Shown here piece by piece: positions 25,651 to 41,859 of a DNA stretch of 64,000 nt. The first letter of the stretch is position 1. The number at the start of each line of letters is the position of its first letter. The DNA comes from Nitrospira defluvii (GTDB taxonomy: Bacteria > Nitrospirota > Nitrospiria > Nitrospirales > Nitrospiraceae). The stretch is taken from the NCBI GenBank assembly GCA_000196815.1, contig FP929003.1, positions 3,929,501-3,993,500 on the forward strand. Direction: 5' to 3'. Below the pieces are notes generated by a model. The model worked only from the letters and a program-made list of their open reading frames with translations. It was not told the DNA's origin and did not search any database. The position numbers and the translations under genes are program-made.

Positions 25651-25695
25651 TGGTGGTCCCAACGGGATTTGAACCCGTGTCTGAGCCTTGAGAGG
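25651..25695. repeat. attL: 45-bp direct repeat from the 3' part of tRNA-Glu
   Basis: Perfect 45-base copy of 41782-41826. On the minus strand it matches tRNA-Glu from one base before the anticodon loop through the T-arm to the CCA. The two copies diverge immediately after the anticodon loop (ACGGAC here, GCTCCG at the right copy). The 5' half of a tRNA is absent here, so this is a repeat remnant rather than a tRNA gene. Confidence 0.95.
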
Positions 25696-25823
25696 ACGGA
25701 CAAAACTGAAGAAAAACAACAGGATGATCAATCAGAAACTTCCAATGAGTAATTAGCTTTTGCAATGGCTTACAAGTTCGCTGTCCCATATCGGATAGCT
25801 CAAAATCGATATACGTTGGCGAC

Positions 25824-27596: not shown

Positions 27597-27606
27597 GGGA
27601 GGCGCA

Positions 27607-27786
27607 ATGTACGACACCGCTCTACTGTTGCAGAAGCCCAATCTCCGTATCGATGAAGCCGCCGCACTGCTCGGCGTGCACCACAACACCATCCGCCGCT
27701 GGATCGATGAAGGAAAGCTGACCGGAGTGCGAATGGCTGACGGCCATCGACGGGTGGCTACCGCGTCGATTCTTGAATTTTTGTAG
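27607..27786 (+). CDS. Small helix-turn-helix DNA-binding protein
   Basis: 59 residues, MerR/excisionase-type helix-turn-helix (IDEAAALLGVHHNTIRRWIDEGKL, of which AALLGVHHNTIRRWI is the core) followed by a short wing ending in a hydrophobic helix. GGAGG lies four bases before the ATG. It follows terL by 10 bases and is probably translated from the same message. Could be a transcription regulator or an excision factor. Confidence 0.75.
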   Translation: MYDTALLLQKPNLRIDEAAALLGVHHNTIRRWIDEGKLTGVRMADGHRRVATASILEFL

Positions 27787-27941
27787 CTGGAAGTGCGTTT
27801 TGGGTTGATTCCTATCCAGACCTTCTCTATCCTGCCCGCCATTTTTGAAGAATTTCCTATCATCGCGAATAATTTGAATGTTTGGGCAGATTTCAACTAG
27901 ACATTCATGGAAATCGGGCGTAGCGTGAATACTATATATGG

Positions 27942-28100
27942 TTGTTCCAAAAACGGACGGCCCTAGAACTCATCTGCGGGGATGAAGTCCAGGGCCGCCA
28001 TTACCAGGGATGGTACTACGATGAGAAGACCATAACCGCCCCTAGAAAGGGCGACCCGGCACGAAAGTCCGGCAACCTCGATAGGCAGTGGGGCGCTTAG
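27942..28100 (+). CDS. Possible small protein (TTG start)
   Basis: A 52-residue frame that begins at TTG and ends at TAG. Its codons have GC-rich third positions like real genes here, and it contains an aromatic patch (HYQGWYYDEKT) and a basic tail ending DRQWGA. No ATG or GTG start and no clear ribosome-binding site are present, so it may be a small gene or a remnant of a longer one. An imperfect inverted repeat (27958-27974 against 27981-27997) lies inside it. Confidence 0.35.
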   Translation: MFQKRTALELICGDEVQGRHYQGWYYDEKTITAPRKGDPARKSGNLDRQWGA

Positions 28101-28125
28101 CTTGGCAGCGGTTGCCCCTCTGTCT

Positions 28126-28157
28126 TGAAAGGGTCTGCAGTATAGTGGGCCCTTTCA
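28126..28157. promoter_or_regulatory. Inverted repeat flanking a TATAGT element
   Basis: Perfect arms TGAAAGGG (28126-28133) and CCCTTTCA (28150-28157) enclose TATAGT at 28141-28146, about 70 bases ahead of the next small gene. It could be an operator over a -10 element, although no matching -35 at the right distance is seen. Confidence 0.3.
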
Positions 28158-28229
28158 TGACTTTCAACGGGTATCACTTGAGCCCGGCAATTCCGTCGTA
28201 CTCAAGCATACCAAATACTATCTGGAGAC

Positions 28230-28379
28230 ATGAAAATGGCAAACAAAGATTCGAAAACCACGCTGCGCGGACGAGATTCTGGAGACGGTCGATTCATTCC
28301 CGTGAAGGAAGCTCGAGAGAATCCGAAGACTTCAACAGTCGAACGGGTTCCGAAACCTGGCTACGGTGATACTAAGTAG
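28230..28379 (+). CDS. Small basic protein of 49 residues
   Basis: Begins MKMANKDSKTTLRGRDSG; the second ATG two codons on is an alternative. It is hydrophilic with the core GDGRFIPVKEARENPKTSTVERV, a pattern I associate with short conserved bacterial proteins of unknown role. GGAG lies a few bases before the start. A rho-independent terminator follows 26 bases after the stop, which supports a separate short transcript. Confidence 0.6.
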   Translation: MKMANKDSKTTLRGRDSGDGRFIPVKEARENPKTSTVERVPKPGYGDTK

Positions 28380-28405
28380 TCGGCTCTAAACCCGTTAGGG
28401 TTTGC

Positions 28406-28441
28406 GGGACGGAGGTCGAGAGGCTTCCGTCCCGTTTTTAT
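28406..28441 (+). terminator. Rho-independent terminator
   Basis: Stem GGGACGGA (28406-28413) with TCCGTCCC (28426-28433), then GTTTTTATTT. Ends the small-protein transcript on the plus strand. Its T-run overlaps the stop codon of the convergent ribbon-helix-helix gene. Confidence 0.85.
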
Positions 28442-28614
28442 TTCCGCTTCTCCGCATACTTCTTCAGCAGGTCCCGCGCCGCCTCTTCCAGTATCTCGTT
28501 GACGTACCTATCCTGATCAAGGGCCAGGTGCTGGATCTCCAACATCAGCTCCCGATTCAAACTCAACCCAAAGGTCTTCCTCGGCTTTTCTGCCTTGTCC
28601 TGACGTTTCATCAT
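28438..28614 (-). CDS. Ribbon-helix-helix-like small protein
   Basis: 58 residues. The stretch RKTFGLSLNRELMLEIQHLA followed by DRYVNEILEEAARDLL fits a CopG/Arc-type ribbon-helix-helix with the strand, helix A and helix B in order. Start at 28614, or the next ATG at 28611. Divergent from a second protein of this kind at 28722. A repressor or antitoxin role is possible, but no toxin partner is seen. Confidence 0.6.
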   Translation of the reverse strand: MMKRQDKAEKPRKTFGLSLNRELMLEIQHLALDQDRYVNEILEEAARDLLKKYAEKRK

Positions 28615-28666
28615 GCACCTCGGGCGGCATTCTGACTGCGGCTGAATGCCTAGTCAACAATATGTC

Positions 28667-28694
28667 TTGACATATAGGAATATAGAGATATAGA
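28667..28694 (+). promoter_or_regulatory. Sigma-70-type promoter
   Basis: TTGACA (28667-28672), a 16-base spacer and TATAGA (28689-28694), 28 bases ahead of the ATG at 28722. The spacer and the region around it contain repeated ATATAG units that could be an operator. It lies in the divergent gap between the two ribbon-helix-helix genes and would drive the replication and first Xis-Int block. Confidence 0.7.
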
Positions 28695-28721
28695 TTGTGT
28701 CCGAAAGGTAGGGCATACCGT

Positions 28722-28877
28722 ATGGCCATGGTCAAACTTCTGATTCAAATTCCCCACGCGATCAAAGCCAAGCTCGATGCGTTGCGACAACAAGGCACGA
28801 CTTCCAGCGGGTTCATTCGTAGCCTGTTGGAGCGCGAGTTTCAGGAGCGGGACGAAAAGACGCGCTCGAAACGATGA
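28722..28877 (+). CDS. Ribbon-helix-helix-like small regulator
   Basis: 51 residues: MAMVKLLIQIPHAIKAKLDA, then GTTSSGFIRSLLEREFQERDEK. This matches the strand, helix and Ser-Gly-hinge-helix plan of CopG-type DNA-binding proteins. A second ATG lies two codons inside. First gene after the predicted promoter and likely autoregulated; it may control the downstream replication gene. Confidence 0.6.
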   Translation: MAMVKLLIQIPHAIKAKLDALRQQGTTSSGFIRSLLEREFQERDEKTRSKR

Positions 28878-28923
28878 GGCACCTGAGACCGGTGCGAGCG
28901 TTGTAGAACCTGGAGGCTAGAGA

Positions 28924-29622
28924 ATGGGTCGCTTAGACGTGCCCAAATACTTTCGCGTATCTGGCAGATTCTGGTTCGATGAACGGGCTGCGAAATGGCC
29001 GGACGATCTGAAGCTCTTTGCCTTATACATCCTGACAAACCAGCATCGCACCATGGAGGGCATTTTCGTCCTGCCAATTCCCTACATGGCCGCCGATCTC
29101 CGCTGGCCGACCAAGAAAATCGACCACATGATGGCGGCGCTCAGAGACGAGGAATTCATCTCCTACGACTTGGACACCAGCACCATCCTCATTCGGAATG
29201 CGCTCAAATATCAGAGCCCGGAGAACCCCAACCAATCCGAAGCATGCCTTCGCCGCATCAAAGAGCTACCCAAGTCATCGATTGTTACAGAGTTTCAAGC
29301 GATGGCCCGGAAACACTGTTACCGAAAAGGGGCGTCTGCCTCGGCGCAAGCGTTCGCGCAACTGTTAGACAAACTGTTGCTCGAACACTTCCACGAACAG
29401 TTGTACCCAGCAGGGAGCACTCTTAATCTTGAATCTTCATCTTCACCTGAACCTAAAACTAAATCTTCATCTTCACCTCCTCTGAGCTCCGGAGTGTCTC
29501 TACGGGAAATGCGTGAGGAACGGTTGGCCCCCCACCTCAGGGCAACTGAGGATGTCTCTTCTGTTCGTCAACTTTCGGAAGAATATTTTGGGAAGACCCT
29601 ACAGGAGGCCGCTGATGGGTAA
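28924..29622 (+). CDS. Phage replication initiation-like protein
   Basis: 232 residues; GGAGG seven bases before the ATG. The N-terminal half (FDERAAKWPDDLKLFALYILTN, EGIFVLPIPYMAADL, IDHMMAALRDEEFI) looks like the winged-helix module of phage replisome-organiser proteins. Residues about 165-190 are a low-complexity Ser/Pro/Glu/Lys linker, followed by a charged tail. Function is inferred from fold-like pattern and position beside regulatory genes. Confidence 0.55.
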   Translation: MGRLDVPKYFRVSGRFWFDERAAKWPDDLKLFALYILTNQHRTMEGIFVLPIPYMAADLRWPTKKIDHMMAALRDEEFISYDLDTSTILIRNALKYQSPENPNQSEACLRRIKELPKSSIVTEFQAMARKHCYRKGASASAQAFAQLLDKLLLEHFHEQLYPAGSTLNLESSSSPEPKTKSSSSPPLSSGVSLREMREERLAPHLRATEDVSSVRQLSEEYFGKTLQEAADG

Positions 29623-29695
29623 CCAACTGTGCCGCGATTCAGCCACCGCTAAACCGCAGAAAATGATCAAAGAATAATCGAAACGGAGGATCTTT

Positions 29696-30046
29696 ATGAC
29701 AACCGCACTGTTCGGCACAGATTCCATCAACACAATTTCTCAAATTTTCGATGAACTGAGCCATGTGAAAAGCGCTTTGGAAAGTGTCATGGATCGCTTA
29801 ACGGACGAGGAATATCAGGGGCGGGATTACGCAGCGAAGCGAGTCATGGAGGATGGCCGTGTTATGGCAATTGTTTTAAAGCGATTCGCAGAGCTTATCG
29901 ACGTAGGTTGGGAGATCCACCGAGCTACAAAGATTGACGATTCGCCTACGTCGTTCGATTCAAGCGCGAGGATATTCCTGAAGTCGCCCCAACAGCGTAG
30001 CGCTGCTCTTTCCAGTTCTCATGCAGGGAAGGAGGCCCGCGGATGA
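29696..30046 (+). CDS. Hypothetical helical protein of 116 residues
   Basis: Good GGAGG site ahead of the ATG. Largely helical (FDELSHVKSALESVMDRLTD, VMAIVLKRFAELIDVG) with a polar tail. No known domain recognised. Its stop overlaps the start of the Xis-like gene as ATGA, so translation is coupled. Confidence 0.6.
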   Translation: MTTALFGTDSINTISQIFDELSHVKSALESVMDRLTDEEYQGRDYAAKRVMEDGRVMAIVLKRFAELIDVGWEIHRATKIDDSPTSFDSSARIFLKSPQQRSAALSSSHAGKEARG

Positions 30047-30327
30047 CATTGCTAACGCCCTCGGAAACAGCCCAGTTTCTCAGGGTCTCGGCGCGCACCT
30101 TGCGACGTCTTCCGGTGCCGCGCGCGAAAATCGGGGGCCAGCTGCGGTATGATCTCGCCGATCTAGAGGCCTGGGTGCGGAAGCAGAAGCAGGGCATGAT
30201 TCTCGATGTGACGCCCGCGACCCCACTGACCAGTCTTCCTACACCTGCCTTGATACCTGCCGCATCACCTCGACCAGTGAAACATCGGAACCCTCTTTTT
30301 GCAATCGGAGGTAGGCGGCCCACATGA
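30043..30327 (+). CDS. Excisionase-like helix-turn-helix protein 1
   Basis: 94 residues. Helix-turn-helix of the MerR/Xis kind (LLTPSETAQFLRVSARTLRR) with the wing KIGGQLRYDLADLEAWVRKQ, then a Pro/Ala-rich tail. ATGA overlaps link it to genes on both sides. Its position just before an integrase gene suggests a recombination directionality factor. Confidence 0.72.
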   Translation: MTLLTPSETAQFLRVSARTLRRLPVPRAKIGGQLRYDLADLEAWVRKQKQGMILDVTPATPLTSLPTPALIPAASPRPVKHRNPLFAIGGRRPT

Positions 30328-31499
30328 AAACCACCCGCACCATGACGCCGCAAGGGATGCGCTCGCTGCTAGATTTTCGCTATCGTGGCGTCCGGTACCG
30401 GCCCGTGCTTGGGTACAACCTCACGCCCGATCAGGAACACGAGGCGATGGTACAGGTACTGGCGGCGATTCAATCGCAGATCCGGCCGGATGCTACGACG
30501 ACCGGCCTCACATTCGCCCAGTTCGTGCCCAAATACCTGGATCGGCTCAACGGCAAAGCGCTCGCGGCACTCGATCGGCCGAGAACGATTCTCACGCGTC
30601 ACCTGGTCCCGTTTTTTGGGATTCGGCCGCTGCAGTCCATGAAATTGGAGGACGGTGTCGCCTATATCGCCCACCGGCGCGCCGAAATGGCTGCAGATGG
30701 CACGATCCGACGGGAGTGCGGCGTCTTACTCGGATTGCTGAATTATGCCGTCGCCAACGAAGACCTCGACAAGAATCGCCTGTTGGCGCTCGATCTGCCC
30801 GCTGGCGCGCAGCGCACCCGCGTGGCAAAGCCCTGGGAGCTCTACCGGATCTATCATCTGAGCGCGCCGGCCATTCAACGGATGATGATGCTGGCCCTGC
30901 TCACTGGTTTGCGCGAGGCAAAGATTATCGCCATTGACCAGGAATGGATCATTGAGCCGGCTGATGGTGAATGGCTCATTCCGGTCCAGGGCAGCCGGCT
31001 GAAGCGCGTCCCGGAGGAGCTGCCTCTGTCTCCCCTCGCCGCTTCGTTTCTACGTGGGACACTCCCGCGCATCGGCGGACGATTCTTCAGCCAATGGCGA
31101 GACGCGGGCTCATTCAAACATCGATGGGCGGAGGCATGTGCCCGCGCAGGCGTGCAGGATCTGCATTTTCATGATCTCCGCCATACGGCGGCAACCTGGC
31201 TGTGTGAGGCGGGTGTCGAATATGCGACCACGGAGAAACTGCTCGGCCATCGTCTGCCGGGTATGGGCGAGCTATACATGCACAATTGGAAGCCGAAGTT
31301 GCGCATGGCCGTCACGACGCTGGAAGCGATCGCCTTCGAGCGATTCCGCGAGGCCTCGCATGAAGCAGGTGCGGGCGTCCAGAACCGCAGCCACACGCAC
31401 TCCACCCTAGCCGGCTGGTGGGAATCCATGCCGGCATCCCGCTCCGCAATCTCTAACCGGTCCCTACACACATCACAACTGAAAGGAGTTTCAGTATGA
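30324..31499 (+). CDS. Tyrosine integrase 1
   Basis: 391 residues. N-terminal arm-binding part, SAM-like core-binding domain (about 60-165), catalytic domain with Arg in TGLREAK, HxxR in HDLRHTAATWL, Gly-His in LLGHRLPGMG, and Tyr in ELYMHN. The C-terminal 50 residues are a variable tail. All catalytic residues are present. It is homologous to the integrase at the right end, but no attachment repeat was found next to it. It may be relic or serve another site. Confidence 0.9.
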   Translation: MKTTRTMTPQGMRSLLDFRYRGVRYRPVLGYNLTPDQEHEAMVQVLAAIQSQIRPDATTTGLTFAQFVPKYLDRLNGKALAALDRPRTILTRHLVPFFGIRPLQSMKLEDGVAYIAHRRAEMAADGTIRRECGVLLGLLNYAVANEDLDKNRLLALDLPAGAQRTRVAKPWELYRIYHLSAPAIQRMMMLALLTGLREAKIIAIDQEWIIEPADGEWLIPVQGSRLKRVPEELPLSPLAASFLRGTLPRIGGRFFSQWRDAGSFKHRWAEACARAGVQDLHFHDLRHTAATWLCEAGVEYATTEKLLGHRLPGMGELYMHNWKPKLRMAVTTLEAIAFERFREASHEAGAGVQNRSHTHSTLAGWWESMPASRSAISNRSLHTSQLKGVSV

Positions 31500-31729
31500 G
31501 TCACCAGCTGTTGAGTCTGTCGTGCGATGCTCCGGTAGAAAGCCTGCAAGACATCTTAGGAAATTTTGAAGGCGCACAGGTTGGACTCAGAAAATTACGC
31601 GATCGCCTCGTTGACAGCGGTGAACAGGGGCTCGTGGAAGATGCCTCAATATTCCTGGGGCTTTATCTAAACTATACTGATGAACTGATAAGAAGGGCCT
31701 ATTTGCAGACGGCCGAGAAGACCGCATAG
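31496..31729 (+). CDS. Hypothetical protein of 77 residues
   Basis: Starts at an ATGA overlap with the integrase 1 stop and has an AAAGGAG site. Mostly helical (VGLRKLRDRLVDSG, FLGLYLNYTDELIRRAYL). No family recognised. End of the run starting at 28722. Confidence 0.55.
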   Translation: MSHQLLSLSCDAPVESLQDILGNFEGAQVGLRKLRDRLVDSGEQGLVEDASIFLGLYLNYTDELIRRAYLQTAEKTA

Positions 31730-31751
31730 CGTAAGCTGCGAACTGGAAGGG

Positions 31752-32687
31752 CTAGGCGTCTGCTGATCCTGAGCGTGATGCGACTCCCTCGAATCGCGAG
31801 CCCTTCTTAGATCGAGCCTGGATTCTCTGTCGAAATCGCTGAACCCTTGCTAGGACGGCGCAGGGGCTCTCTAATTTATTGTCCTGATCTCCAGGGCAGA
31901 ACCGCTGTCTGCCATCGGTCTGAATAAATGCTCCTCCGCATCCTGGGCGTTCACATCTTCTTACTCTTCCACCGCGAAGGGCATTTGCCACATGCCAGTA
32001 GGCCATCTCGATCAATGCAGTGCAGTGGAAATACTGAGCAAAGGTCTGTCGGCTTTCCAGCCAGGCCATCTCAGGAAAAATGCCCGATATATTTTTACTC
32101 ACTATGGTTGCGAGAATTTTGCCCGTTAAATGGCGCACTACATTCTTATCATCCTCTTTGCTAACAGGAGAGAAAAACTGTTGGACAACTCCTGCGCCGG
32201 CTGAAAATTTCAGAAAAGGCGAAGGATGCTTCTGATGTTTCATGTCCGATGGCGTCAAGCTCAGTAGTCGGTTCCTCAAAGAATCATCGCGTTCACAGTC
32301 CAGCATTTCTTTAAGATCTAAACAGAGGCGCAATGTTTCAGCATGTGACCAGATCCACGCCAACGGGTCTCCAAACGTGGCATTAAGCTTAGAGTTCTCA
32401 GGAAGAATTTCATTAAACCCAAACATTCCATAGATTTTTGCGAATCGGATGATAGCCGCTTCGTCGCCACGCTGTAATTTAGCCACTGCGCTGGGAAGCT
32501 CTGCACGACTGGCTGGCGTATATATGTGAGTCTTCCCCTCTGCACTGAGGAGAGGCTTAAGCACTGCTACCCGCTTTCCCCTGCCCATCACCTGCTCAAT
32601 TGTGTAATCCGCTTCTACCATCCAACCAGTCGTGATCCCCAATGCGCGACTCTTAGCGGGTTCCGGTTTTGGCAATTTTCTTTTCAT
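31752..32687 (-). CDS. Zinc-finger protein of CGNR-like type
   Basis: 311 residues, the only long minus-strand gene inside the element. A C-terminal module RRCERPGCGGAFIQTDGRQRFC with a later Cys resembles the CGNR/ABATE zinc finger of predicted transcription regulators. The N-terminal 200 residues are alpha-helical with no recognisable enzyme motif. It stands divergent to the second regulatory and replication block, the position typical of a prophage repressor. That role is inferred from position. Confidence 0.55.
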   Translation of the reverse strand: MKRKLPKPEPAKSRALGITTGWMVEADYTIEQVMGRGKRVAVLKPLLSAEGKTHIYTPASRAELPSAVAKLQRGDEAAIIRFAKIYGMFGFNEILPENSKLNATFGDPLAWIWSHAETLRLCLDLKEMLDCERDDSLRNRLLSLTPSDMKHQKHPSPFLKFSAGAGVVQQFFSPVSKEDDKNVVRHLTGKILATIVSKNISGIFPEMAWLESRQTFAQYFHCTALIEMAYWHVANALRGGRVRRCERPGCGGAFIQTDGRQRFCPGDQDNKLESPCAVLARVQRFRQRIQARSKKGSRFEGVASRSGSADA

Positions 32688-32732
32688 GGCTTACTCTCTC
32701 CTCTGTAACGTTAATGTAACGGTATATCATGA

Positions 32733-32761
32733 TTGAATTATCGTAACAATAAGAATACTTG
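32733..32761 (+). promoter_or_regulatory. Possible promoter in the divergent gap
   Basis: TTGAAT (32733-32738), a 17-base spacer and TACTTG (32756-32761). The gap also holds three GTAAC words between 32704 and 32745, which could be operator half-sites for the divergent regulator. Confidence 0.35.
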
Positions 32762-32768
32762 TACACGA

Positions 32769-32783
32769 GTGCATGTCATGCAC
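32769..32783. promoter_or_regulatory. Perfect palindrome, candidate operator
   Basis: GTGCATGTCATGCAC: seven-base arms around one central base, immediately ahead of the GGAGGAGG ribosome-binding site of the gene at 32797. Placed downstream of the predicted start site, it could act as a repressor-binding site or an mRNA hairpin. Confidence 0.45.
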
Positions 32784-32796
32784 GGAGGAGGCAACA

Positions 32797-33009
32797 ATGG
32801 ACCAGAAGAAAATCGTCAGTGCCGGGGAACTGGAGGAGTTAGGCATTCTTAAAAGACGAACGGCTCTTCGGATGGCCCAACTCGGCATGCTTCCCCATGT
32901 CAGGTTTGGAGCCAAACTAAAGGGCGTAGGTTTCTTTCAGGAAGATGTGATTGAGGCCCTTAAATGCCGGCTCAACCATGCTGCGGAATCTCGCAAAGTA
33001 GTTGGCTGA
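32797..33009 (+). CDS. Small DNA-binding protein (helix-turn-helix)
   Basis: 70 residues. Pattern VSAGELEELGILKRRTALRMAQ followed by a basic wing (FGAKLKGVGFFQEDVIEAL) fits an excisionase/MerR-like helix-turn-helix. Strong GGAGGAGG site. First gene of the second block in the element. Confidence 0.6.
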   Translation: MDQKKIVSAGELEELGILKRRTALRMAQLGMLPHVRFGAKLKGVGFFQEDVIEALKCRLNHAAESRKVVG

Positions 33010-33018
33010 GCGCTCACT

Positions 33019-33561
33019 ATGAAGTGGATCAAGCATATGGTCGCTACGACGCGCGATGAAAAAGTAGCTGCATACCTCGAAGACACGGGCTTGCAAGGCT
33101 ACGGGTTCTACTGGCGGCTGCTTGAGATCGTAGCTGAGGCCATGCCTCCCGGTGATGAGACCTGCACAGTCACCTACTCTCTATCCACCTGGTCACGTTT
33201 GCTTTATTGCCACCATCACCAGGCGGGTAAGTACCTGGGTAGGCTGAGGGGTAACGGCCTGGTAACGATGGCTAAGCGAGGGAGTGATATTAGGGTAACT
33301 ATTCCTAACTTAGCGAAATATCGTGATGAGTATTCCCAAAAGTCCCGACACGCTCCCGACCCACACCGGACAATGTCCGCCTCAGAGTCAGAATCAGAGA
33401 AAGAAAGAACCGGATCCGGATCTTCGGAGCAAGACCGGAGCCAGACTAGGAAGGTTGGTAGGTCGATGCGGGAAGAAGATCTCCCTGATCATCTTCGGGA
33501 GGTGGAAGGCTTCAGCATGATAGGGCCAATCGCCAAAGAAATTATGCGGAGGATGCATTGA
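33019..33561 (+). CDS. Phage replication initiation-like protein, second copy
   Basis: 180 residues. The start MKWIKHMVATTRDEKVAAYL with GYGFYWRLLEIVAEAMPP resembles the N-terminal domain of DUF4373/Lin1244-type phage replication proteins, a winged-helix DNA-binding module. A Ser/Glu/Arg-rich linker follows at about 115-150, then a short conserved tail. Parallel in position to the gene at 28924 but not obviously its close copy. Confidence 0.6.
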   Translation: MKWIKHMVATTRDEKVAAYLEDTGLQGYGFYWRLLEIVAEAMPPGDETCTVTYSLSTWSRLLYCHHHQAGKYLGRLRGNGLVTMAKRGSDIRVTIPNLAKYRDEYSQKSRHAPDPHRTMSASESESEKERTGSGSSEQDRSQTRKVGRSMREEDLPDHLREVEGFSMIGPIAKEIMRRMH

Positions 33562-33801
33562 ATGGGCCCGACGAAGGTGGCGGCGAGGTATCGGAAGGGA
33601 TGGGCCCACGTGAAGAACATGCTGCGCACGATGGCCCAAGCGGTAGACCTCCTCGATGTGGTGCTTCTGGCTGCGCTGTCCTTCATCACGTCTGGCATGT
33701 ATCAGCTCGCCGGAAGCGGATGGGCCTGCCTAGTGCTCGGGGCGCTGTTACTGGGCCTTGTGATGATCGGCGTGCCAACGGAGAAACCTTTAGCGCCGTA
33801 A
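33562..33801 (+). CDS. Small membrane protein
   Basis: 79 residues directly after the stop of the previous gene. Basic N-terminus, then two hydrophobic helices (VDLLDVVLLAALSFITSGMY and GWACLVLGALLLGLVMIGV). Could be a holin-like or inner-membrane protein, but there is no lysis gene beside it, so no function is assigned. Confidence 0.55.
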   Translation: MGPTKVAARYRKGWAHVKNMLRTMAQAVDLLDVVLLAALSFITSGMYQLAGSGWACLVLGALLLGLVMIGVPTEKPLAP

Positions 33802-33862
33802 AGGTTGACGCATTCAGATTGCAGAACTAGTGAGTCGCTGGGAAGGAAATCGGAGGGGGCGT

Positions 33863-34015
33863 ATGGACAGGATTTCAGTACCGAAGGAGAACCCGCTGCA
33901 ACTTGCCGGCTTGCAATTCCTCACAGCACTGTTGGTCCACTTCGAACAGGATCCGCCAGATCGCAGCGTGCTCGCCGTATCGTCGCCTGTCGTCAGATCA
34001 TGGGAGGATCTATGA
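33863..34015 (+). CDS. Small hypothetical protein of 50 residues
   Basis: ATG at 33863 with GGAGGGGG just upstream; the longer frame is less likely. The stop overlaps the next start as ATGA, which supports its reality. No known motif (MDRISVPKENPLQLAGLQFL). Confidence 0.5.
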   Translation: MDRISVPKENPLQLAGLQFLTALLVHFEQDPPDRSVLAVSSPVVRSWEDL

Positions 34016-34560
34016 GAGATGCAGGCGCCAGAAAACTAGTGTCTGTGCCGTCAGGCGATGCGCTCATTCCTCATCGCTGGATCGCCTTGCCCGGGCAGCC
34101 ATCCTATGTCGCGGCAATGACGACCCTGCGGACCGTCGAAACACAAATCGCCGAGGCCCAGCGAGCATGTCTAGTGAATGAAAGCGATCGGTTGCAAGCT
34201 GATCGTCTAGAGGCCGAAACTAATTTGCTTCATATCACTGACCGCTTACACATGGATTTGCAGGATCTCCTCAGTCCTGCTGTGACCGGCTTTGTTCGGT
34301 ATACGCTCAACTCACTGGTCGCGTTTCTGCAGTGGCAACTGATTTTGTCCAATAGCAGCCTCATGGTTCAGAACACGGGGTTTAGCTCGTCTGCACTTCC
34401 TCTGCGATCAACCATTGATGCCGTCTTGGCGCTCGATCTGAGATCAGCCTTTTCCCTGCTTATCGCATCAGCTCAGGTTAGCCAGGCAATCACGAGTGCC
34501 GAGGCGAGCGAATTGTTATCCGGCAAACTACTTTCCATGAGCAACCCGACAGCCAAGTAG
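34012..34560 (+). CDS. Hypothetical protein of 182 residues
   Basis: ATG at 34012 preceded by GGGAGG; an open frame extends 69 codons further 5' but runs over the previous gene. Contains a central coiled coil (TVETQIAEAQRACLVNESD and onward) and a more hydrophobic C-terminal half. No family recognised. Lies before the capsid-protease region. Confidence 0.55.
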   Translation: MRDAGARKLVSVPSGDALIPHRWIALPGQPSYVAAMTTLRTVETQIAEAQRACLVNESDRLQADRLEAETNLLHITDRLHMDLQDLLSPAVTGFVRYTLNSLVAFLQWQLILSNSSLMVQNTGFSSSALPLRSTIDAVLALDLRSAFSLLIASAQVSQAITSAEASELLSGKLLSMSNPTAK

Positions 34561-34574
34561 GAGGAATCATTCAC

Positions 34575-35219
34575 ATGAAGCTACTTACCCGCCCATCCAA
34601 ATCAGCGTCAGATCTAAAACCGATTGAAGAATACGCAGAATATCAGGCGGCCCAGGAGGTGGTCGATCGGTTAAATCGAGAGCGCAATGCAGTTGCCGCA
34701 GAGAAAACAGATCTGATCAACAAAGCTAACGCATATCGACGCCCTGCCGTGGAGGTTCTTTCTGCCGCCTATCTCCGGGGGCCACGCCCGTCGCTAGATG
34801 AAGATGGAATCCTCCTCAGCAAGAAGATTAGCGAACTCGGTCTGAGGTTCAACGCACTCACACTGGCCATTCAAACTGCTGAGAAAGAAGTGGTGGCGGT
34901 TCGACATCGATTATCTGCCGAAACCGCTAAGGAGCAGGCTTCTAGCTATCGCTTGTATGTCCGAGTAGTTCTGTTCGGCATGCTGAAAATTCAGCAAGGC
35001 AACTCTCAAATCAATGACATGGCCGACGGCCGAAAGGAACTTGGATATAACGAGATCTTTTCGCCTGTTGGGCCTTCCCCGTGGCCACAGTGGGGCGATC
35101 CAAAGGAGGACTCTTCACTTTGGAGAATGATTTTGAATGAGTTCTTAGAGGCAGGTCATATTTCGGGTGGAGAGCACAGCCGAATTATCAACGGTCTCCT
35201 TAGGGATTTCGAGCCCTAA
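34575..35219 (+). CDS. Hypothetical coiled-coil protein of 214 residues
   Basis: AGGAGG precedes the ATG. Long Ala/Glu/Arg-rich helices (EYQAAQEVVDRLNRERNAVA) suggest a coiled coil, ending in a compact C-terminal segment. Position immediately ahead of the prohead protease could suggest a head-related role, but nothing in the sequence proves it. Confidence 0.55.
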   Translation: MKLLTRPSKSASDLKPIEEYAEYQAAQEVVDRLNRERNAVAAEKTDLINKANAYRRPAVEVLSAAYLRGPRPSLDEDGILLSKKISELGLRFNALTLAIQTAEKEVVAVRHRLSAETAKEQASSYRLYVRVVLFGMLKIQQGNSQINDMADGRKELGYNEIFSPVGPSPWPQWGDPKEDSSLWRMILNEFLEAGHISGGEHSRIINGLLRDFEP

Positions 35220-35259
35220 GCGGTGCTCGCTGAAAACACTTCACGATTGGAGAATTCAA

Positions 35260-36012
35260 ATGGAGCATGAGAGACGAATCCTTGGCTCATACTTCACACT
35301 GCGGAATTCAGGAGGTGCTCCGGTTCTTGTTGGGCATGCGGCCGTCTTCGATCGAGATAGCGAGCTGATCGCCGGAAGCTTTATAGAACGCATCGCACCT
35401 GGGGCATTTCGCGAATCTATCGCGAGGAGAGACGACGTTAGGGCTCTCATAAACCATGACAGCAATCTGATTCTGGCGAGGACTGTCAGCGGAACGCTAC
35501 TCCTTCGAGAAGACCAGCACGGGCTGTATGTCGAGATTAATCCACCAAAGACTAGCTATGCCCAAGACCTGTTGGAAAGTGCCAGACGTGGGGATGTTTC
35601 GCAGATGAGCTTCGGCTTTACCGTGCCACCCGGTGGAGAGCAATGGGAGCGAGGCCAGAACGGCAGGCCTGATATCAGAACTCTCCTCAAAGTGAACCTC
35701 TTCGATGTAAGTGCCGTCACGTTCCCAGCATACCCAGACACGAATGTCGCGGTGCGAAGCCATAGTCAATTCGTGGGCCATGCCAGCGTCTCATCCGGTT
35801 CACCAGACGTGCAACTGCGTCGTCGCCGGCTAAGGCTAGAGATGTTGGCTGCTGGCATCCCTGATGCTTCGGAGGACGTTGCACTGCGACGACGGAAGCT
35901 GCGCAACGAGGTAATGACCACCAAGCATGCAGATCTTCAATTGGAAAGTTACTTGTCCAAACGAGAGCGCCAAGTCGAACGTGAGAGAGAAGCTGAATGG
36001 ACTCGTGGGTGA
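35260..36012 (+). CDS. HK97-type prohead protease
   Basis: 250 residues from the ATG at 35260 (an upstream frame overlaps the previous gene). Family S78 pattern: GHAAVFDRDSELIAG, FIERIAPGAFRESI, RALINHDSNLILART (catalytic His), and MSFGFTVPPGGEQW with the nucleophile Ser, then VTFPAYPDTNVAVR. It matures HK97-type capsids by cutting scaffold or capsid N-termini. The last 60 residues are a basic helical extension. No capsid gene follows, which is unusual. Confidence 0.88.
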   Translation: MEHERRILGSYFTLRNSGGAPVLVGHAAVFDRDSELIAGSFIERIAPGAFRESIARRDDVRALINHDSNLILARTVSGTLLLREDQHGLYVEINPPKTSYAQDLLESARRGDVSQMSFGFTVPPGGEQWERGQNGRPDIRTLLKVNLFDVSAVTFPAYPDTNVAVRSHSQFVGHASVSSGSPDVQLRRRRLRLEMLAAGIPDASEDVALRRRKLRNEVMTTKHADLQLESYLSKRERQVEREREAEWTRG

Positions 36013-36016
36013 GCCA

Positions 36017-36367
36017 ATGCCGACTCTTCCACTGAGACCTTGCACATATTCAGGATGCCCGGCACTCACTGCCACCGGTCGCTGCCCTGCACACAGGCGT
36101 GCGCCTAAACCAGAAGTTCAGCCAGTGCGGCTCTATGACGACAGGCGAGGAAGCTCAGCCAAGCGTGGATATGACCGTCAATGGAGAAAGAAGCGCGCAG
36201 CATATTTGATCGCCAATCCATGGTGCAGGAAATGCGCTGCTGCGGCTGCGTTGGTCGACCACATTATACCCAAGGCAATTGGCGGAACGGATGACGATCG
36301 CAATCTGCAGCCACTCTGCGTGCGTTGCCACAATATAAAAACAGGGAGTGAGCGACGTGCGCGATGA
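36017..36367 (+). CDS. HNH endonuclease
   Basis: 116 residues from the ATG at 36017. HNH core: LVDHIIPKAIGGTDDDRNLQ, PLCVRCHNIKT, with a zinc site from CRKC and CVRC. An extra N-terminal CTYSGCPALTATGRCPAH cluster may bind zinc. Such nucleases commonly sit beside terminase genes of HK97-type phages and assist packaging. Confidence 0.87.
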   Translation: MPTLPLRPCTYSGCPALTATGRCPAHRRAPKPEVQPVRLYDDRRGSSAKRGYDRQWRKKRAAYLIANPWCRKCAAAAALVDHIIPKAIGGTDDDRNLQPLCVRCHNIKTGSERRAR

Positions 36368-36523
36368 CCGGGGGCGGGTGCAATCTCTACAGAGTTTCAG
36401 CGTTGACCGATCGTCTTCCCTCTACGTATATCTCCGCGAAATTGGAAAACATTTTCCCCTTTTTACTGGTGCACTGAGAGGCCCAAAACAGGCTCAATAC
36501 GATGCGGGGAAAGGTCGGTAAAT

Positions 36524-36916
36524 ATGTTGAAAACTGGGCCGTTTGATCTTGGTATCCCACCCATGCCGAAAGGACTCGATGGATATGCCCGGGGAGAATG
36601 GCGGCGGCTTGTGTCCCATCTATCGGAGAAAGGTGTTTTGTGTCCTGCCGACATTTTCATTCTGCAGGTCACTTGTGAGGCCTACTCCGAGCTAATGCGA
36701 TGGTCCAGCGCGCTCAAACGATCTGTCTCTCGTTACCCACACAGCCGACGGACAATGCGAGCACGTGACGTCGATATGCGGTCTGCTCTCCTAAATACCT
36801 ATTTGCACTGCCTCGAAGAATGCTCCGCACCTCCGCCTGATCACATTCGTCTTCGTGTACTGCCGACGAAAGATCCTGGTGGTGCAGGAAATCTGTTGGC
36901 AGGAGGTGCCCGATGA
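36524..36916 (+). CDS. TerS-like protein, P27 family, divergent copy
   Basis: 130 residues. The segment GEWRRLVSHLSEKGVLCPAD with FILQVTCEAYSELMRWSSAL aligns by eye with the next protein (EWDRLIGLLCDESGVLSPAD, CEHYSAFRRASRIL). It appears to be a paralogue of the small terminase subunit, shorter at the N-terminus. Ends four bases into the next gene as ATGA. Confidence 0.6.
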   Translation: MLKTGPFDLGIPPMPKGLDGYARGEWRRLVSHLSEKGVLCPADIFILQVTCEAYSELMRWSSALKRSVSRYPHSRRTMRARDVDMRSALLNTYLHCLEECSAPPPDHIRLRVLPTKDPGGAGNLLAGGAR

Positions 36917-37383
36917 GAGGCAGAAAGCCAAAACCACCTGATCTGCGAGCGCTACAGGGGAACGTCGGCCATCGTCCGCCTTCTTCGGCGGCAACAGCGT
37001 TTGTAGCAGGCGCGCCGGATAAACCAGAGTGGCTCGACGCTGACGGTTCAGCGGAATGGGACAGATTGATCGGATTGCTCTGTGATGAAAGCGGGGTTCT
37101 TTCGCCGGCTGATTGCGGGATCTTGATTTGTGCCTGCGAGCACTATTCTGCGTTCAGGAGAGCCAGCCGAATTCTAGCCGAGAAGGGCGACACCTACGAA
37201 ACGAATGGGGAAGCCGGCACCATGATCCGTGTACGGCCAGAGGTTCGCATGCGACAGGATGCGCTTCGCAATTATCAACGCACCCTGACCGAATTGGGGT
37301 GCACACCAACACAACATGGCCGAGTGCGCCGCCTTCCGGATGGCCAAACTGAACTTTTTGGAATAAAGAAACTCCTCGGATAA
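36913..37383 (+). CDS. terS: Phage terminase small subunit, P27 family
   Basis: 156 residues. N-terminal basic RGRKPKPPDLRALQGNVGHR is a classic opening for P27-type small terminase subunits, followed by the EWDRL helix region and the C-terminal VRPEVRMRQDALRNYQRT and LGCTP segment. It recognises DNA for packaging and partners TerL, whose gene is at the other end of the integrated element. Confidence 0.85.
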   Translation: MRGRKPKPPDLRALQGNVGHRPPSSAATAFVAGAPDKPEWLDADGSAEWDRLIGLLCDESGVLSPADCGILICACEHYSAFRRASRILAEKGDTYETNGEAGTMIRVRPEVRMRQDALRNYQRTLTELGCTPTQHGRVRRLPDGQTELFGIKKLLG

Positions 37384-37392
37384 GGAGACACG

Positions 37393-40008
37393 ATGGCAAA
37401 CAGGTTGACATTAGAACTAGTGGCCGATGCGAACGGGCTGCTAAAGACAATGGAGCAAGCCCAACGCCAGCTGAATAGTTTCATCAAAAGCGCGGATTCT
37501 GCTGGCCAATCGCTGGGAGGCGGAGTCAACCAGGCGCTTGATGTGTTTCAGGGCTTGGCCAGGGGCGGCGCGGCCGCAGCTGGTGTTCTAGCTGGAGGGT
37601 TTGTGGCTGCTGCTGGGGCTGCCATTCTCCTGGTTGAGAGTGCCGGGAAACAGGCCGAGATACTCGACCAGACCAGCCAGAAAACCGGCATAGCCATCAG
37701 CACACTTCAGAGCTGGACCGTCGCCATGGCCCAGAGCGGCCTGGGGATGGACACACTCACGCGCGGAGTGAAACAGCTTTCCGACCAGATCGTTCAGTCG
37801 CGAAATCCTAACAGTCAGGCGGCCGAAAAGTTCAACCAGCTGGGAATCACCGCGACTTCAGTGGATGGCGTGCTCGAGCAACTGGCCGATCGCTTCGGCA
37901 TGATGCCGGACGGTGCGGACAAAACGCGTATCGCCGTGGAGATGTTCGGGAAAGCCGGACAAGACTTGATCCCAATTCTAAATAAAGGCTCTGCGGGGCT
38001 ACGGGAGAGCATGGAAGCCTCCAAGAGACTCGGCGCGGTCCTCTCCGACGATACAGTCAAGTCGCTGGCCATTGCGGACGATGCCTTCGACACTCTCGGC
38101 GTCGCCACACGGGCTGCTGCGAACCAGTTTGCTGGGTTAATGGCGCCGGCGGTGGGAGCGGTGACGGAATCCTTTGCGAAGGGAGTGGGTGCCGTCGCGA
38201 CATTCTTCGGGGCACTCAACGAAGGCAGCAAGGGCGGAGAAAACACCATTCAGTTTCTCAAGACGCTCAACCCCTTGATTCAGAAACTCGGGGGCCCGGG
38301 ATTCAACGTCGAGGCAATGGAGAAGCAGGCCAAAGACATGGCCTCCTTCGGAGACGCCACGAAGCAGCTCCATGACGAACTCATCGCGAAGCTCGAAGCC
38401 GAAGGCAAGATCGAAGAAGAAAAGGGCATGAGGTTGCGATCCGTGCACATCGCCGCCTATCGCGACATCACGGCGGAAATGAAAGCTCAGGAACAATTGG
38501 GCCGAAACCAAATGGAGATTGAGGCTCACGCGCAAAAAGACCGGAATGCGGCGTTTGGCCTACAGCTGCAGCAACAAGAAGAGCTCAACAACATGCAGTT
38601 TGCGCCGGCCACGATCAGCCCAGCGATGGCCGCGCATGAAGCCGCGGTCGAGAACCTCATCCGGCTCATGCCGGAGCTGAACCACCAGGAAGCGGCACTC
38701 CAGGCCCTATTCAACGCACAGTCCGGACACGACACTGTCGTCGCGACTACAGAAGCCTTCAAATATCAGAACAAAGAAATCGAGCGGGGGATTCAGGCGT
38801 TGCTGGTGCTCTATCCGGAGCTCTCGCGAGCCCAGGCTGAGGCCATGGCCATTGATCAGGCAGAAAAAGGCCACAATGCCATGATCCAGCAGATAGCCGA
38901 CCATAAGGATGTAAATAAGGAGCTTGAGCTAGGAACCGAATACGCTAAGGCAAATTATTCATTGCAGGAGGCGTTCTACAGAAACGCACCAGGTCTTATT
39001 GGACAGGCGGATCTTGCCAGGCAACGTGGCTTCGAGCTCTTACAGGCGGAAAATGACCTCCGGAGACGGGTAATCGATCAGACTATTTTTGACGAAGAAC
39101 GCAAAGGTGCAGCCATATTCGCGCTCGACAAAGATCTGCAGGCGAAAAGAATGGGGATTCTTAATCAGTTCCCGACGTTTTGGGAGCAGCAACTCAACGC
39201 GATCGTCGCCAGCAACGCCTTCTCACTCTCTAGCATCACCTCGAATTTCAACAATGCCACCGCGCAATGGATTCAGGGACAGGGCGATTTTACCCAGTTT
39301 TGGCAACAGACGCAGACGACCCTCTTAACTAGCGCTCTGCAATTTACGGAGCAGTGGCTCGTTCAATTAGCCCTCGCGCAATTGAAAGAGATCGCCATGG
39401 TGACGACGCAGGAGGCGACCAAAACATCCATTCAGATGGCTGGCGATGCCGCACGCGTGGCATCAAACGCCACGGCCAATGCGGCCATGGAGGCGAGCAA
39501 TGTCGCGTCGGCCACCGCTTCGACCTCGATCTGGGGAAGTGCGGTCGACGGCATCTCCGGATTCTTCGGCATGATCGGCAGCGGGTTTTCCGCAGTGGCC
39601 GGTTCGTTGGTCGAAACCGTCATTGCCGCCGGGACGTTCATCATGACCGTGCTGTCAGCCGTTGCGGAAGCCTTGTCGGCCACGGTCTTCGGCATTCCCT
39701 TCGCCGGGGCGATCGTGGTCGGCATCGGCCTCATTGCGGCTGCGCTCGCCATGACGGACAACCTCCCGGCGTTCGCTCATGGCGGCATCGTGTCTGGCCC
39801 AACAGTCGGACTCATGGGAGAAGCCGGCTCACCGGAAGCCGCCATTCCGCTGAACGATCGCGGCGCGGCGTTCATGCAAAAGGCGATGGGCTTCGGCGGC
39901 GGCGGTGGACCCGTCACAATCGTTCTCCAGGTGGATCGCCGCACGATGGCGAAGGCCGTGGTGCCTGAGCTGCATAGCGTCATCCATACCAAGCTGGGAT
40001 ACACATGA
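37393..40008 (+). CDS. Phage tail tape measure protein
   Basis: 871 residues. Hydrophobic helices near the N-terminus (about 55-75), long helical middle, hydrophobic cluster near residues 755-800, and the family C-terminal signature AHGGIVSGPTVGLMGEAGSP with EAAIPL. The protein sets tail length in siphophages. Here it stands without tail tube, chaperone or tip genes, which is odd. GGAGA precedes the ATG at 37393. Confidence 0.88.
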   Translation: MANRLTLELVADANGLLKTMEQAQRQLNSFIKSADSAGQSLGGGVNQALDVFQGLARGGAAAAGVLAGGFVAAAGAAILLVESAGKQAEILDQTSQKTGIAISTLQSWTVAMAQSGLGMDTLTRGVKQLSDQIVQSRNPNSQAAEKFNQLGITATSVDGVLEQLADRFGMMPDGADKTRIAVEMFGKAGQDLIPILNKGSAGLRESMEASKRLGAVLSDDTVKSLAIADDAFDTLGVATRAAANQFAGLMAPAVGAVTESFAKGVGAVATFFGALNEGSKGGENTIQFLKTLNPLIQKLGGPGFNVEAMEKQAKDMASFGDATKQLHDELIAKLEAEGKIEEEKGMRLRSVHIAAYRDITAEMKAQEQLGRNQMEIEAHAQKDRNAAFGLQLQQQEELNNMQFAPATISPAMAAHEAAVENLIRLMPELNHQEAALQALFNAQSGHDTVVATTEAFKYQNKEIERGIQALLVLYPELSRAQAEAMAIDQAEKGHNAMIQQIADHKDVNKELELGTEYAKANYSLQEAFYRNAPGLIGQADLARQRGFELLQAENDLRRRVIDQTIFDEERKGAAIFALDKDLQAKRMGILNQFPTFWEQQLNAIVASNAFSLSSITSNFNNATAQWIQGQGDFTQFWQQTQTTLLTSALQFTEQWLVQLALAQLKEIAMVTTQEATKTSIQMAGDAARVASNATANAAMEASNVASATASTSIWGSAVDGISGFFGMIGSGFSAVAGSLVETVIAAGTFIMTVLSAVAEALSATVFGIPFAGAIVVGIGLIAAALAMTDNLPAFAHGGIVSGPTVGLMGEAGSPEAAIPLNDRGAAFMQKAMGFGGGGGPVTIVLQVDRRTMAKAVVPELHSVIHTKLGYT

Positions 40009-40322
40009 TGAGAACGCTGGCAGCAGTGGGCACCACACAGGCGCAACGTCAGGCCCTGGTCCGCATCAACCTGTCGCTGAGCCTGATCGCGACCGGCCTG
40101 CTCTATCGCGATCAGCAAATTCGCAACGCAATCCTCAGCGAACTGGCCGGAACCACCGTGCCCAGCCAATTAATCAGGAAACCTGTGGAATTGCTGAACA
40201 CGATCGCCGAAACCATCACCATGCTCAGCCGCCGGCTCAGCGATGGGGTTGCCTACGAGACCCTCCTGGAGCTCCAAACCGAAGCGCGAGCGATCTTCGG
40301 CAGGCTGGAGAGAGCGCGATGA
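40005..40322 (+). CDS. Hypothetical protein of 105 residues
   Basis: Overlaps the tape measure stop and the next start as ATGA. Helical throughout (LVRINLSLSLIATGLLYRD, LLNTIAETITMLSRRLSD). No known family. In position it parallels the gene at 29696 ahead of the other Xis-Int pair. Confidence 0.55.
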   Translation: MMRTLAAVGTTQAQRQALVRINLSLSLIATGLLYRDQQIRNAILSELAGTTVPSQLIRKPVELLNTIAETITMLSRRLSDGVAYETLLELQTEARAIFGRLERAR

Positions 40323-40600
40323 TACCCGGTGCAGCACAAAATCACACGGCTCCGGAAATCATGACGCTCGCCGAAGCGGCGGCCTACCTTCGCCTGTCGA
40401 AATCCACGCTGTACCAGCGGAAGGACATTCCGAGGCATAGGATACCGAAATCGCGTGAGGTTCGATTTCTGAAAGAGGAGTTACTTGCCTGGCTCAGAAG
40501 CGGACACGTTGCGCCCGCACCGACTGACAGCGATGTGCTGACTCTCCCCCTAGACAGGACCGCCGCCGCTGTTTACCATCGGAACCCACGGTATCGTTAA
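40319..40600 (+). CDS. Excisionase-like helix-turn-helix protein 2
   Basis: 93 residues. Helix-turn-helix MTLAEAAAYLRLSKSTLYQR with wing RHRIPKSREVRFLKEELLAWL, as in Xis/AlpA-type proteins. It is six bases before integrase 2 and is the likely directionality factor for the attachment sites seen here. Related in plan to the protein at 30043. Confidence 0.72.
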   Translation: MIPGAAQNHTAPEIMTLAEAAAYLRLSKSTLYQRKDIPRHRIPKSREVRFLKEELLAWLRSGHVAPAPTDSDVLTLPLDRTAAAVYHRNPRYR

Positions 40601-40605
40601 GACGC

Positions 40606-41838
40606 ATGTCCTACACCATCAATAAACGGCGGACTCAGAAAGGTCTGGCCTTCGACCTTTACTACCGCTGGAAAGGGCAGCGGTATCGACCCCTGTTAGG
40701 GTACGATCTCTCACCGGACGAGGCTGAGGAACTCGCTATCGCGATGATCAGCACGATCCATCGAGGCGAACAGGCGCCGCCCTCGCGATCTCCGGAATCC
40801 ACACTCCGGACATTCCTTCCAATCTACTGGCAGGCGCTGCGGGTGAAAAACCGTGTGGACCTCCGCCGGCCAGAGATCATCCTTGAAACGCATCTTCTTC
40901 CCCGTTTCGGCGACCGGCTGTTGGATTCACTAACCCCTGAAGATGGGCAAGAGTACATCGCCGCCCGCCTCGATGCGAAGGCTTCACCAGGCACCATTCA
41001 GAAGGAATGGGGCGTGCTCATGCGCATCCTAAATCTCGCAGTCGATTTTGAAAAGCTGGATAGGAATCGCCTGAAGCGAGTCCAGCTTCCTGAGGTGGCC
41101 CGCCGGGAACGTGTGGCCACGAACGAGGAACTGTCAGCGATTCAGGCCGAGGCGGCCAAACGGAAGCCCTACAAGATCCTCGGACGTGTCTATGACCCTG
41201 CCGAGTTCTGGCGGATTGTTCAGGTGGCCCTCCATACAGGCCTCAGAGAGGCCAAGATCCTCGAAATCGACCGATCTTGGCTCCGACAGAGGGATGATGG
41301 CTGGTGGCTCATCCTGCCGCCTTCCAGGACGCGTCTGAAGGGAACACCGAGGGAACTCCCCCTGAATCATCTGGTCTATCGGGCACTGCGCCCAGAGGTG
41401 GCAGCGATTGAGGGGCCCATCTTCGCCAATTGGTCTGCTGATGCGTTCGGCCATCAGTGGCATCGAACCTGTAAAGCAGCCAAGGTGCAGGATCTCCACT
41501 TCCACGACCTCCGCCACACATTCACAACCCGGCTGCAGAACCTCGGAGTGAGCCTGGAGATTCGCTCTGCACTGCTGGGACACAGCACCAAAGCCATAAT
41601 GACGAGTCAGTATTCACACGGCGGACAAGGTTGGAATCTGAAGCTTCGCGAAGCCGTGACGCAGCTCGAAACTACGTATACGACGCCGATTTTGTCCTAT
41701 GGAGTGTCCTATGAGGGGTCGAGCCTACTCAGGCCAGAACTGAGGAAGGTCGCGAACTCCGCAGAAGATCAGGGGAAAGGTTGGTGGTCCCAACGGGATT
41801 TGAACCCGTGTCTGAGCCTTGAGAGGGCTCCGTCCTAG
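40606..41838 (+). CDS. int: Tyrosine integrase 2, C-terminus encoded across tRNA-Glu
   Basis: 410 residues. Catalytic residues present: Arg in TGLREAK, HxxR in HDLRHTFTTRL, LLGHSTKAIM and Tyr in MTSQYSH. The last 20 residues or so (WWSQRDLNPCLSLERAPS) are read from the strand opposite tRNA-Glu, through the 45-bp core and on to a TAG in the tRNA 5' half. Position at the attachment site makes this the enzyme that inserted the element. In the circle the frame would continue into the left end and finish LER-TDKTEEKQQDDQSETSNE at 25752. Confidence 0.92.
   Translation: MSYTINKRRTQKGLAFDLYYRWKGQRYRPLLGYDLSPDEAEELAIAMISTIHRGEQAPPSRSPESTLRTFLPIYWQALRVKNRVDLRRPEIILETHLLPRFGDRLLDSLTPEDGQEYIAARLDAKASPGTIQKEWGVLMRILNLAVDFEKLDRNRLKRVQLPEVARRERVATNEELSAIQAEAAKRKPYKILGRVYDPAEFWRIVQVALHTGLREAKILEIDRSWLRQRDDGWWLILPPSRTRLKGTPRELPLNHLVYRALRPEVAAIEGPIFANWSADAFGHQWHRTCKAAKVQDLHFHDLRHTFTTRLQNLGVSLEIRSALLGHSTKAIMTSQYSHGGQGWNLKLREAVTQLETTYTTPILSYGVSYEGSSLLRPELRKVANSAEDQGKGWWSQRDLNPCLSLERAPS
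41782..41826. repeat. attR: 45-bp direct repeat
   Basis: Identical to 25651-25695. Lies within the intact tRNA-Glu gene and the integrase 2 reading frame. Its distal edge is one base beyond the anticodon loop, a usual crossover region for tyrosine integrases. Confidence 0.95.
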
Positions 41839-41859
41839 GCCAAGCTAGACGATGGGACC
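41782..41859 (-). tRNA. tRNA-Glu (anticodon CTC)
   Basis: 78 bases including encoded CCA. The acceptor stem starts GGTCCCA and pairs with TGGGACC, discriminator A, D-arm GTC/GAC, anticodon stem GAGCC/GGCTC around loop CTCTCAA, T-arm ACGGG/CCCGT with loop TTCAAAT. The gene is whole although the element was inserted, because the element carries the 3' half. A predicted promoter lies upstream at 41895-41924. Confidence 0.95.

Follow-up and report, generated by a model that had tools for sequence, protein, structure and literature searches.

The integrase gene of a phage-like element in Nitrospira defluvii runs through the element's own attachment core. This raises the question of whether the enzyme has one C-terminus in the free circle and another in the chromosome, and whether such a difference would matter to the protein or only to the DNA that encodes it. 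We analysed a stretch of 64,000 nucleotides (hereafter the window), part of a 4,317,083-bp single-contig genome.

An integrase gene that overlaps its attachment site

The element of 16.1 kb is bounded by a 45-bp perfect repeat at 25651-25695 and 41782-41826. No exact repeat shared by the element's two ends is longer than this core (TGGTGGTCCCAACGGGATTTGAACCCGTGTCTGAGCCTTGAGAGG), and no third copy of it lies within the window. When joined, the outer flanks match the same-genus genome G034 contiguously (92% over 407 columns), as an empty attB with a whole tRNA, which shows the ends of the element to be real. The features that define the arrangement are as follows.

25651-41826, no strand: integrated phage-like element, from attL core to attR core (45-bp perfect repeat; empty site in G034)
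25651-25695, plus strand: attL core (45-bp repeat)
41782-41826, plus strand: attR core, lying inside both the reading frame of int2 and the 3' portion of the tRNA (repeat; tRNA prediction)
41782-41859, minus strand: tRNA-Glu (CTC), intact at the end of int2 (ARAGORN)
40606-41838, plus strand: int2, tyrosine integrase of 410 aa when integrated, ending LER-APS, with putative catalytic Tyr336 (open reading frame; Pfam; phrog_1)
25696-25752, plus strand: 18 tail codons (TDKTEEKQQDDQSETSNE) followed by TAA, continuous with int2 in the circle alone (tails of this kind in relatives)

The initial annotation held that int2 reads through the core on the strand opposite tRNA-Glu, and the repeat, the open reading frame and the ARAGORN coordinates bear this out to the base. 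In the integrated state the protein ends inside the tRNA-Glu(CTC) gene with RDLNPCLSLERAPS (410 aa), the LER-APS terminus that had been proposed. An attP made in silico by joining 40606-41826 to 25696 onward encodes 425 aa ending LERTDKTEEKQQDDQSETSNE, that is LER-TDKTEEKQQDDQSETSNE, with the stop codon TAA at 25750-25752; every number in the initial annotation proved right. The predicted attP junction is CTTGAGAGGACGGACAAAACT.

The catalytic domain of the enzyme stays whole in the exchange. int2 matches Phage_integrase (PF00589, 1.7e-14) and phrog_1 (2.4e-43), and the invariant motifs HDLRH and YSHGG of its catalytic domain mark it as a tyrosine (lambda-type) integrase. Tyr336 lies about 56 residues ahead of the core, which begins near residue 392. 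The AlphaFold2 model of a related integrase (L039, see below) has a lambda-type fold up to about residue 370, with lambda integrase (1z1b) as its best solved match in Foldseek, and residues 373-431 are of low confidence, indicating disorder. Its N-terminus consists of strands plus a helix, and candidate arm repeats flanking the core are conserved.

Tails in related elements

A protein search over 175 genomes of the family returned an integrase clade 54-93% identical to int2, and a second copy of the core was sought in DNA fetched upstream of the clade integrases. The 93% identical integrase is found in a Nitrospira record among the relatives of the window's genome. The tail frame is more than chance: in eleven other Glu-type elements (10 joined in silico and one natural) and four tRNA-Lys elements, a tail of this kind follows the core without a change of frame. 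Examples from Glu-type elements are TDQTEEKQQDDSSIMSDE (G023), TDEKEEKQQLSSEESSNE (G036), TDQTEENQQDDTPKISDE (G078) and TEDTTENQQDDTSGMSDE (G107), and the four Lys-type attP tails are STDISEINQQDDSSESSDE and similar sequences. These members are not all independent, as two Glu-type elements (G108a and G083) are nearly one element. The same tail is also retained at attL in two decayed elements (G025 and G044).

The natural case is L039 (G113:C167), whose integrase is not followed by a tRNA and ends LER-TEKDEENQQDKPLEPSDES. The ends of its contig overlap by 147 bp with one indel, which fits a circle, although a tandem array would look alike; an intact tRNA-Glu(CTC) is located on a different contig of the same assembly. 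The L039 junction, from a relative with 65% identity, thus confirms that a junction such as the one predicted for the window exists. Viral contigs yielded no further attP: the integrase query matched only a contig identical to this element and ending in the same tRNA, the core-plus-tail pattern gave three matches, all in unrelated coding sequence, and the arm pattern gave none. The arm pattern also misses the window's own genome, because the P' arm there is degenerate.

The integrated C-termini are dictated by the tRNA. Members at tRNA-Glu(CTC) that reach the tRNA end in APS, whereas integrated members at tRNA-Lys have ragged ends (404-478 aa in total). Thus a regular, conserved end belongs to the circular form, while the end of the integrated form depends on the host sequence that it meets. 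By inspection, the core ends at the anticodon loop in both Glu and Lys elements, and the integrase frame relative to the core end is identical for the two targets. The natural attP, the conserved tail and the frame kept across tRNA targets together support the earlier prediction that integration swaps an acidic tail of 18 residues for three. In G036, tandem elements (L037/L077) occupy a single tRNA-Glu, and the upstream integrase ends LESRY, since the left end of its neighbour, not the tRNA, comes after the core.

Read-through is also seen in a related class at tRNA-Phe (about 40% identical), where integrases read through their own core. Three sister genomes (L105, L106 and L107) carry, beside this same tRNA-Glu(CTC), a more distant integrase, about 34% identical, whose frame does not enter the core; in four other elements at that tRNA (L108-L111) no long frame enters it either. 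We therefore rejected the explanation that the tRNA site alone forces read-through. Since the tRNA-Phe relatives read through and the 34% identical integrases at the same tRNA-Glu do not, read-through is a property of this integrase clade, with acidity specific to some lineages. The acidic tail is indeed not universal: it is absent from a tRNA-Lys subgroup (K) and basic in two Phe-type relatives (IRCRK/IRCKK), where the attP tail of L124 is predicted and L136 and L140 lack a tRNA and are not shown to be circular. L140 in particular is not taken for a circle, there being no overlap of its ends. The elements L105-L111 of sister genomes, which use that tRNA-Glu(CTC) core too, are about 5-13 kb long.

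Constraint on the tail as DNA and as peptide

The DNA on both sides of the core carries conserved blocks.

41693-41712, plus strand: P arm within int2, made of two direct repeats of TGTCCTAT (41693-41700 and 41705-41712) over the codons LSYGVSY (third-position invariance of S and Y codons)
25713-25727, plus strand: conserved tail DNA block, AAAACAACAGGATGA here and AATCAACAAGATGA in most relatives (few third-position changes in the coding group; AATCAA non-coding in K)
25741-25749, plus strand: conserved block TCCRATGAG just 5' of the stop codon (no third-position change in three codons; TCCRAT non-coding in K)
25758-25797, plus strand: P' arm, TTTTGCAATGGCTTACA and TGTCCCATATCGGATA, with common forms TTTTACAANGNNTTACA and TGTCCTATATAGGACA in relatives (window copy degenerate)

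The P arm has the layout TGTCCTAT-N4-TGTCCTAT over codons for LSYGLSY, and its S, Y, S and Y codons show no third-position changes among 20 integrases, in which codons for invariant residues have 5.0 on average. After the tail, the P' arm of relatives consists of TTTTACAANGNNTTACA followed by the palindrome TGTCCTATATAGGACA, so placed that the tail DNA forms the spacer between core and P' arm. Both motifs depart from the common form in the window, which suggests a decaying attachment site, and because of this degenerate P' arm the window copy may excise poorly or no longer. In the tRNA-Phe relatives L124 and L068 the arm palindrome is different (GTGCCACTAGTGGCAC in L124).

The tail itself bears marks of both kinds of constraint. 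Parsimony changes per site at the three codon positions are 1.32/1.01/4.09 in the integrase body but 2.44/1.50/3.00 in the tail. In the tail, the TCC, GAT/AAT and GAG codons have zero third-position changes, and the third positions of the NQQD and SDE codons hardly vary. The K subgroup (G018, G034, G037 and G039), in which the tail stops early (RAPGDK), keeps AATCAA...TCCRAT as non-coding DNA together with the 17-bp spacing to TTTTACAA. Because these third positions hardly vary and the K subgroup retains the blocks without coding for them, much of the sequence conservation of the tail is that of attP DNA, and a purely protein-level conservation was rejected on the same two grounds. The K subgroup also contains AATCAANNNNTTR, which we take to fit the IHF consensus and offer as a lead only.

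These observations are what one would expect if attP overlapped int for the sake of compactness, the tail being merely the translated P' spacer, the two protein forms working alike, and the DNA site (arm sites, spacing and possibly a host-factor site) being what is conserved. We regard this by-product explanation as a serious one, a little short of an even chance. The absence or scarcity of synonymous changes within AATCAACARGAT and TCCRATGAG, the conservation of the same blocks and the 17-bp spacing in non-coding K DNA, and the predicted disorder of the tail all agree with it. So does the Mx8 phage, in which integration reportedly works without the final 30 residues of Int.

Outside these two blocks, however, third positions change preferentially. 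All 16 tails are free of in-frame stops, while each of them has a stop in the +2 frame, and the net charge of the tails lies between -5 and -8. G036 lacks the DD pair, yet other acidic residues stand there. We simulated neutral change on the integrase tree with observed site rates and matched divergence (129 simulated versus 125 observed changes); stop-free sets arose in 0.5% of the 600 runs and the observed acidity was never reached, results that count as support and not as proof, given that a single base composition was used for all sites. Such an open frame with a narrow acidic charge is improbable under neutral change as simulated, which speaks against the by-product explanation. A column-shuffle test, which ignores shared ancestry, was weighted below the tree simulation. 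The simulation supports selection for an open frame and for acidity, over and above the constraint on DNA, in the Glu lineages and in those Lys lineages whose tail is acidic.

Proposed mechanism and known systems

Our main reading, to which we assign a probability of roughly 0.7, is that attP forms part of the 3' end of the element's integrase gene, giving a protein of 425 aa from the circle and one of 410 aa from the integrated element, and that the two forms probably differ in activity. The P arm (TGTCCTAT repeats) and the tRNA-identical core sit under int codons, and the spacer to the other arm codes for the C-terminal tail of 18 residues, which is acidic and probably disordered. This layout is seen directly, as are its conservation, the natural attP of a relative and the empty site. 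From the free circle would thus come the 425-aa integrase; integration would exchange the sequence after the core for that of the host tRNA, giving the 410-aa form ending APS; and excision would restore the long form. The long protein would most likely be the integration form, and the short one an altered enzyme that can still carry out excision, in line with what is reported for Mx8. The bias of integration against excision that the initial annotation proposed would be no more than a candidate consequence of the swap: part of the tail's conservation reflects attP DNA, the acidic tail is missing from one tRNA-Lys subgroup and gives way to a basic one in two tRNA-Phe relatives, and the integrated form of the Mx8 enzyme is weaker yet active. 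The disordered acidic tail could compete with DNA for basic surfaces or contact partners. The fuller version of the main reading, in which the tail is a state-dependent protein switch, with a dual-coded attP, a spacer selected both as DNA and as acidic peptide, and activity or direction set by integration and kept through switches between tRNA-Glu and tRNA-Lys, is one that we hold only tentatively and would put at rather worse than even odds.

The exchange could instead act on the message, if the difference between circle and integrated element lay in where the transcript ends at its 3' side and not in the protein tail, either in the manner of lambda sib or by reading into left-end genes. In the circular state int2 continues into the left end, and a terminase open reading frame starts there about 70 bp past the stop codon, and there is a palindrome in the P' arm of relatives; this palindrome, however, fits an arm site common to the P arm, and we consider control at the message level improbable. 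It is more improbable still, and quite unlikely in our view, that the circular-form tail targets the integrase for proteolysis and that integration stabilises it, as in the BPs phages, which share the topology of a viral long form and a prophage-encoded short form and have C-terminal proteolysis signals on repressor and integrase: ssrA-like tags end in small hydrophobic residues, and the tails here end SDE, SNE or SD.

Very few elements with attachment sites within their own integrase gene have been described (PMC4701971). In Mx8, according to two accounts (PMC6070905, PMC4701971), attP lies inside int and integration swaps a C-terminus of 112 residues for one of 13, leaving the enzyme less active, not dead. 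Like Mx8 int (Tojo 1996, Magrini 1999), int2 encodes a tyrosine integrase with the core within its frame and a C-terminus changed by integration, and by arrangement, not by descent, the element appears to belong to the Mx8 kind. Unlike in Mx8, the Nitrospira tail is short and acidic (18 to 3 residues), recurs in many elements at two different tRNA targets as a conserved feature, and lies on DNA that doubles as the core-to-arm spacer. The principle is thus already known from Mx8; what stands out here is how deeply the arrangement is conserved and that it is constrained in two ways.

Three other systems are comparable in part. In streptococcal ICEs at rumA, attR lies within the integrase gene and the integrase of the excised element differs in length and C-terminus (PMC4701971), but that enzyme is a serine integrase with rumA as its target. 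In BPs phages, as PMC4557955 describes, attP lies inside the repressor gene and integration trims from the C-terminus a tail that is a degradation tag; the likeness is an attP inside a regulatory gene and a trimmed C-terminus, and the difference is that the altered gene here is the integrase. The suicidal archaeal integrases of the SSV type also have the recombination site inside int, where the gene is split in two (PMC8371274), whereas the catalytic domain of int2 stays whole, with Tyr336 ahead of the core.

Nitrospira relatives offer a family of 16 or more comparable elements in which both forms of the protein can be read, plus a natural attP, and their acidic-tailed, tail-less and basic-tailed lineages are natural contrasts. 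Whether such C-terminal swaps are regulation or by-product is directly testable, since there are two forms of the enzyme to compare and an attP that extends about 100 bp to either side of the core.

Between its ends the element encodes a terminase large subunit, a prohead protease, terminase small subunits, a tape-measure protein and two integrases, each with an HTH_17 gene ahead of it. Among the element proteins searched (25824-40008) no portal or major capsid gene was seen, and for this reason the element looks like a phage remnant or satellite. The HTH_17 gene upstream of int2 is given here.

40361-40600, plus strand: HTH_17 protein, putative excisionase, directly 5' of int2 (Pfam HTH_17, 4.2e-11)

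Its putative role as an excisionase follows from its position, and a similar open reading frame occupies the equivalent place in L039. L124 (reverse strand, 3328 onward) retains AAAATCAACAG after its core, hinting at a shared accessory-protein site. The second integrase (30324-31499, plus strand), with its own HTH_17 gene at 30043-30327, is about 45% identical to int2, adjoins no tRNA and may be the leftover of a nested element. An extra integrase of a similar sort is present in the G023 contig.
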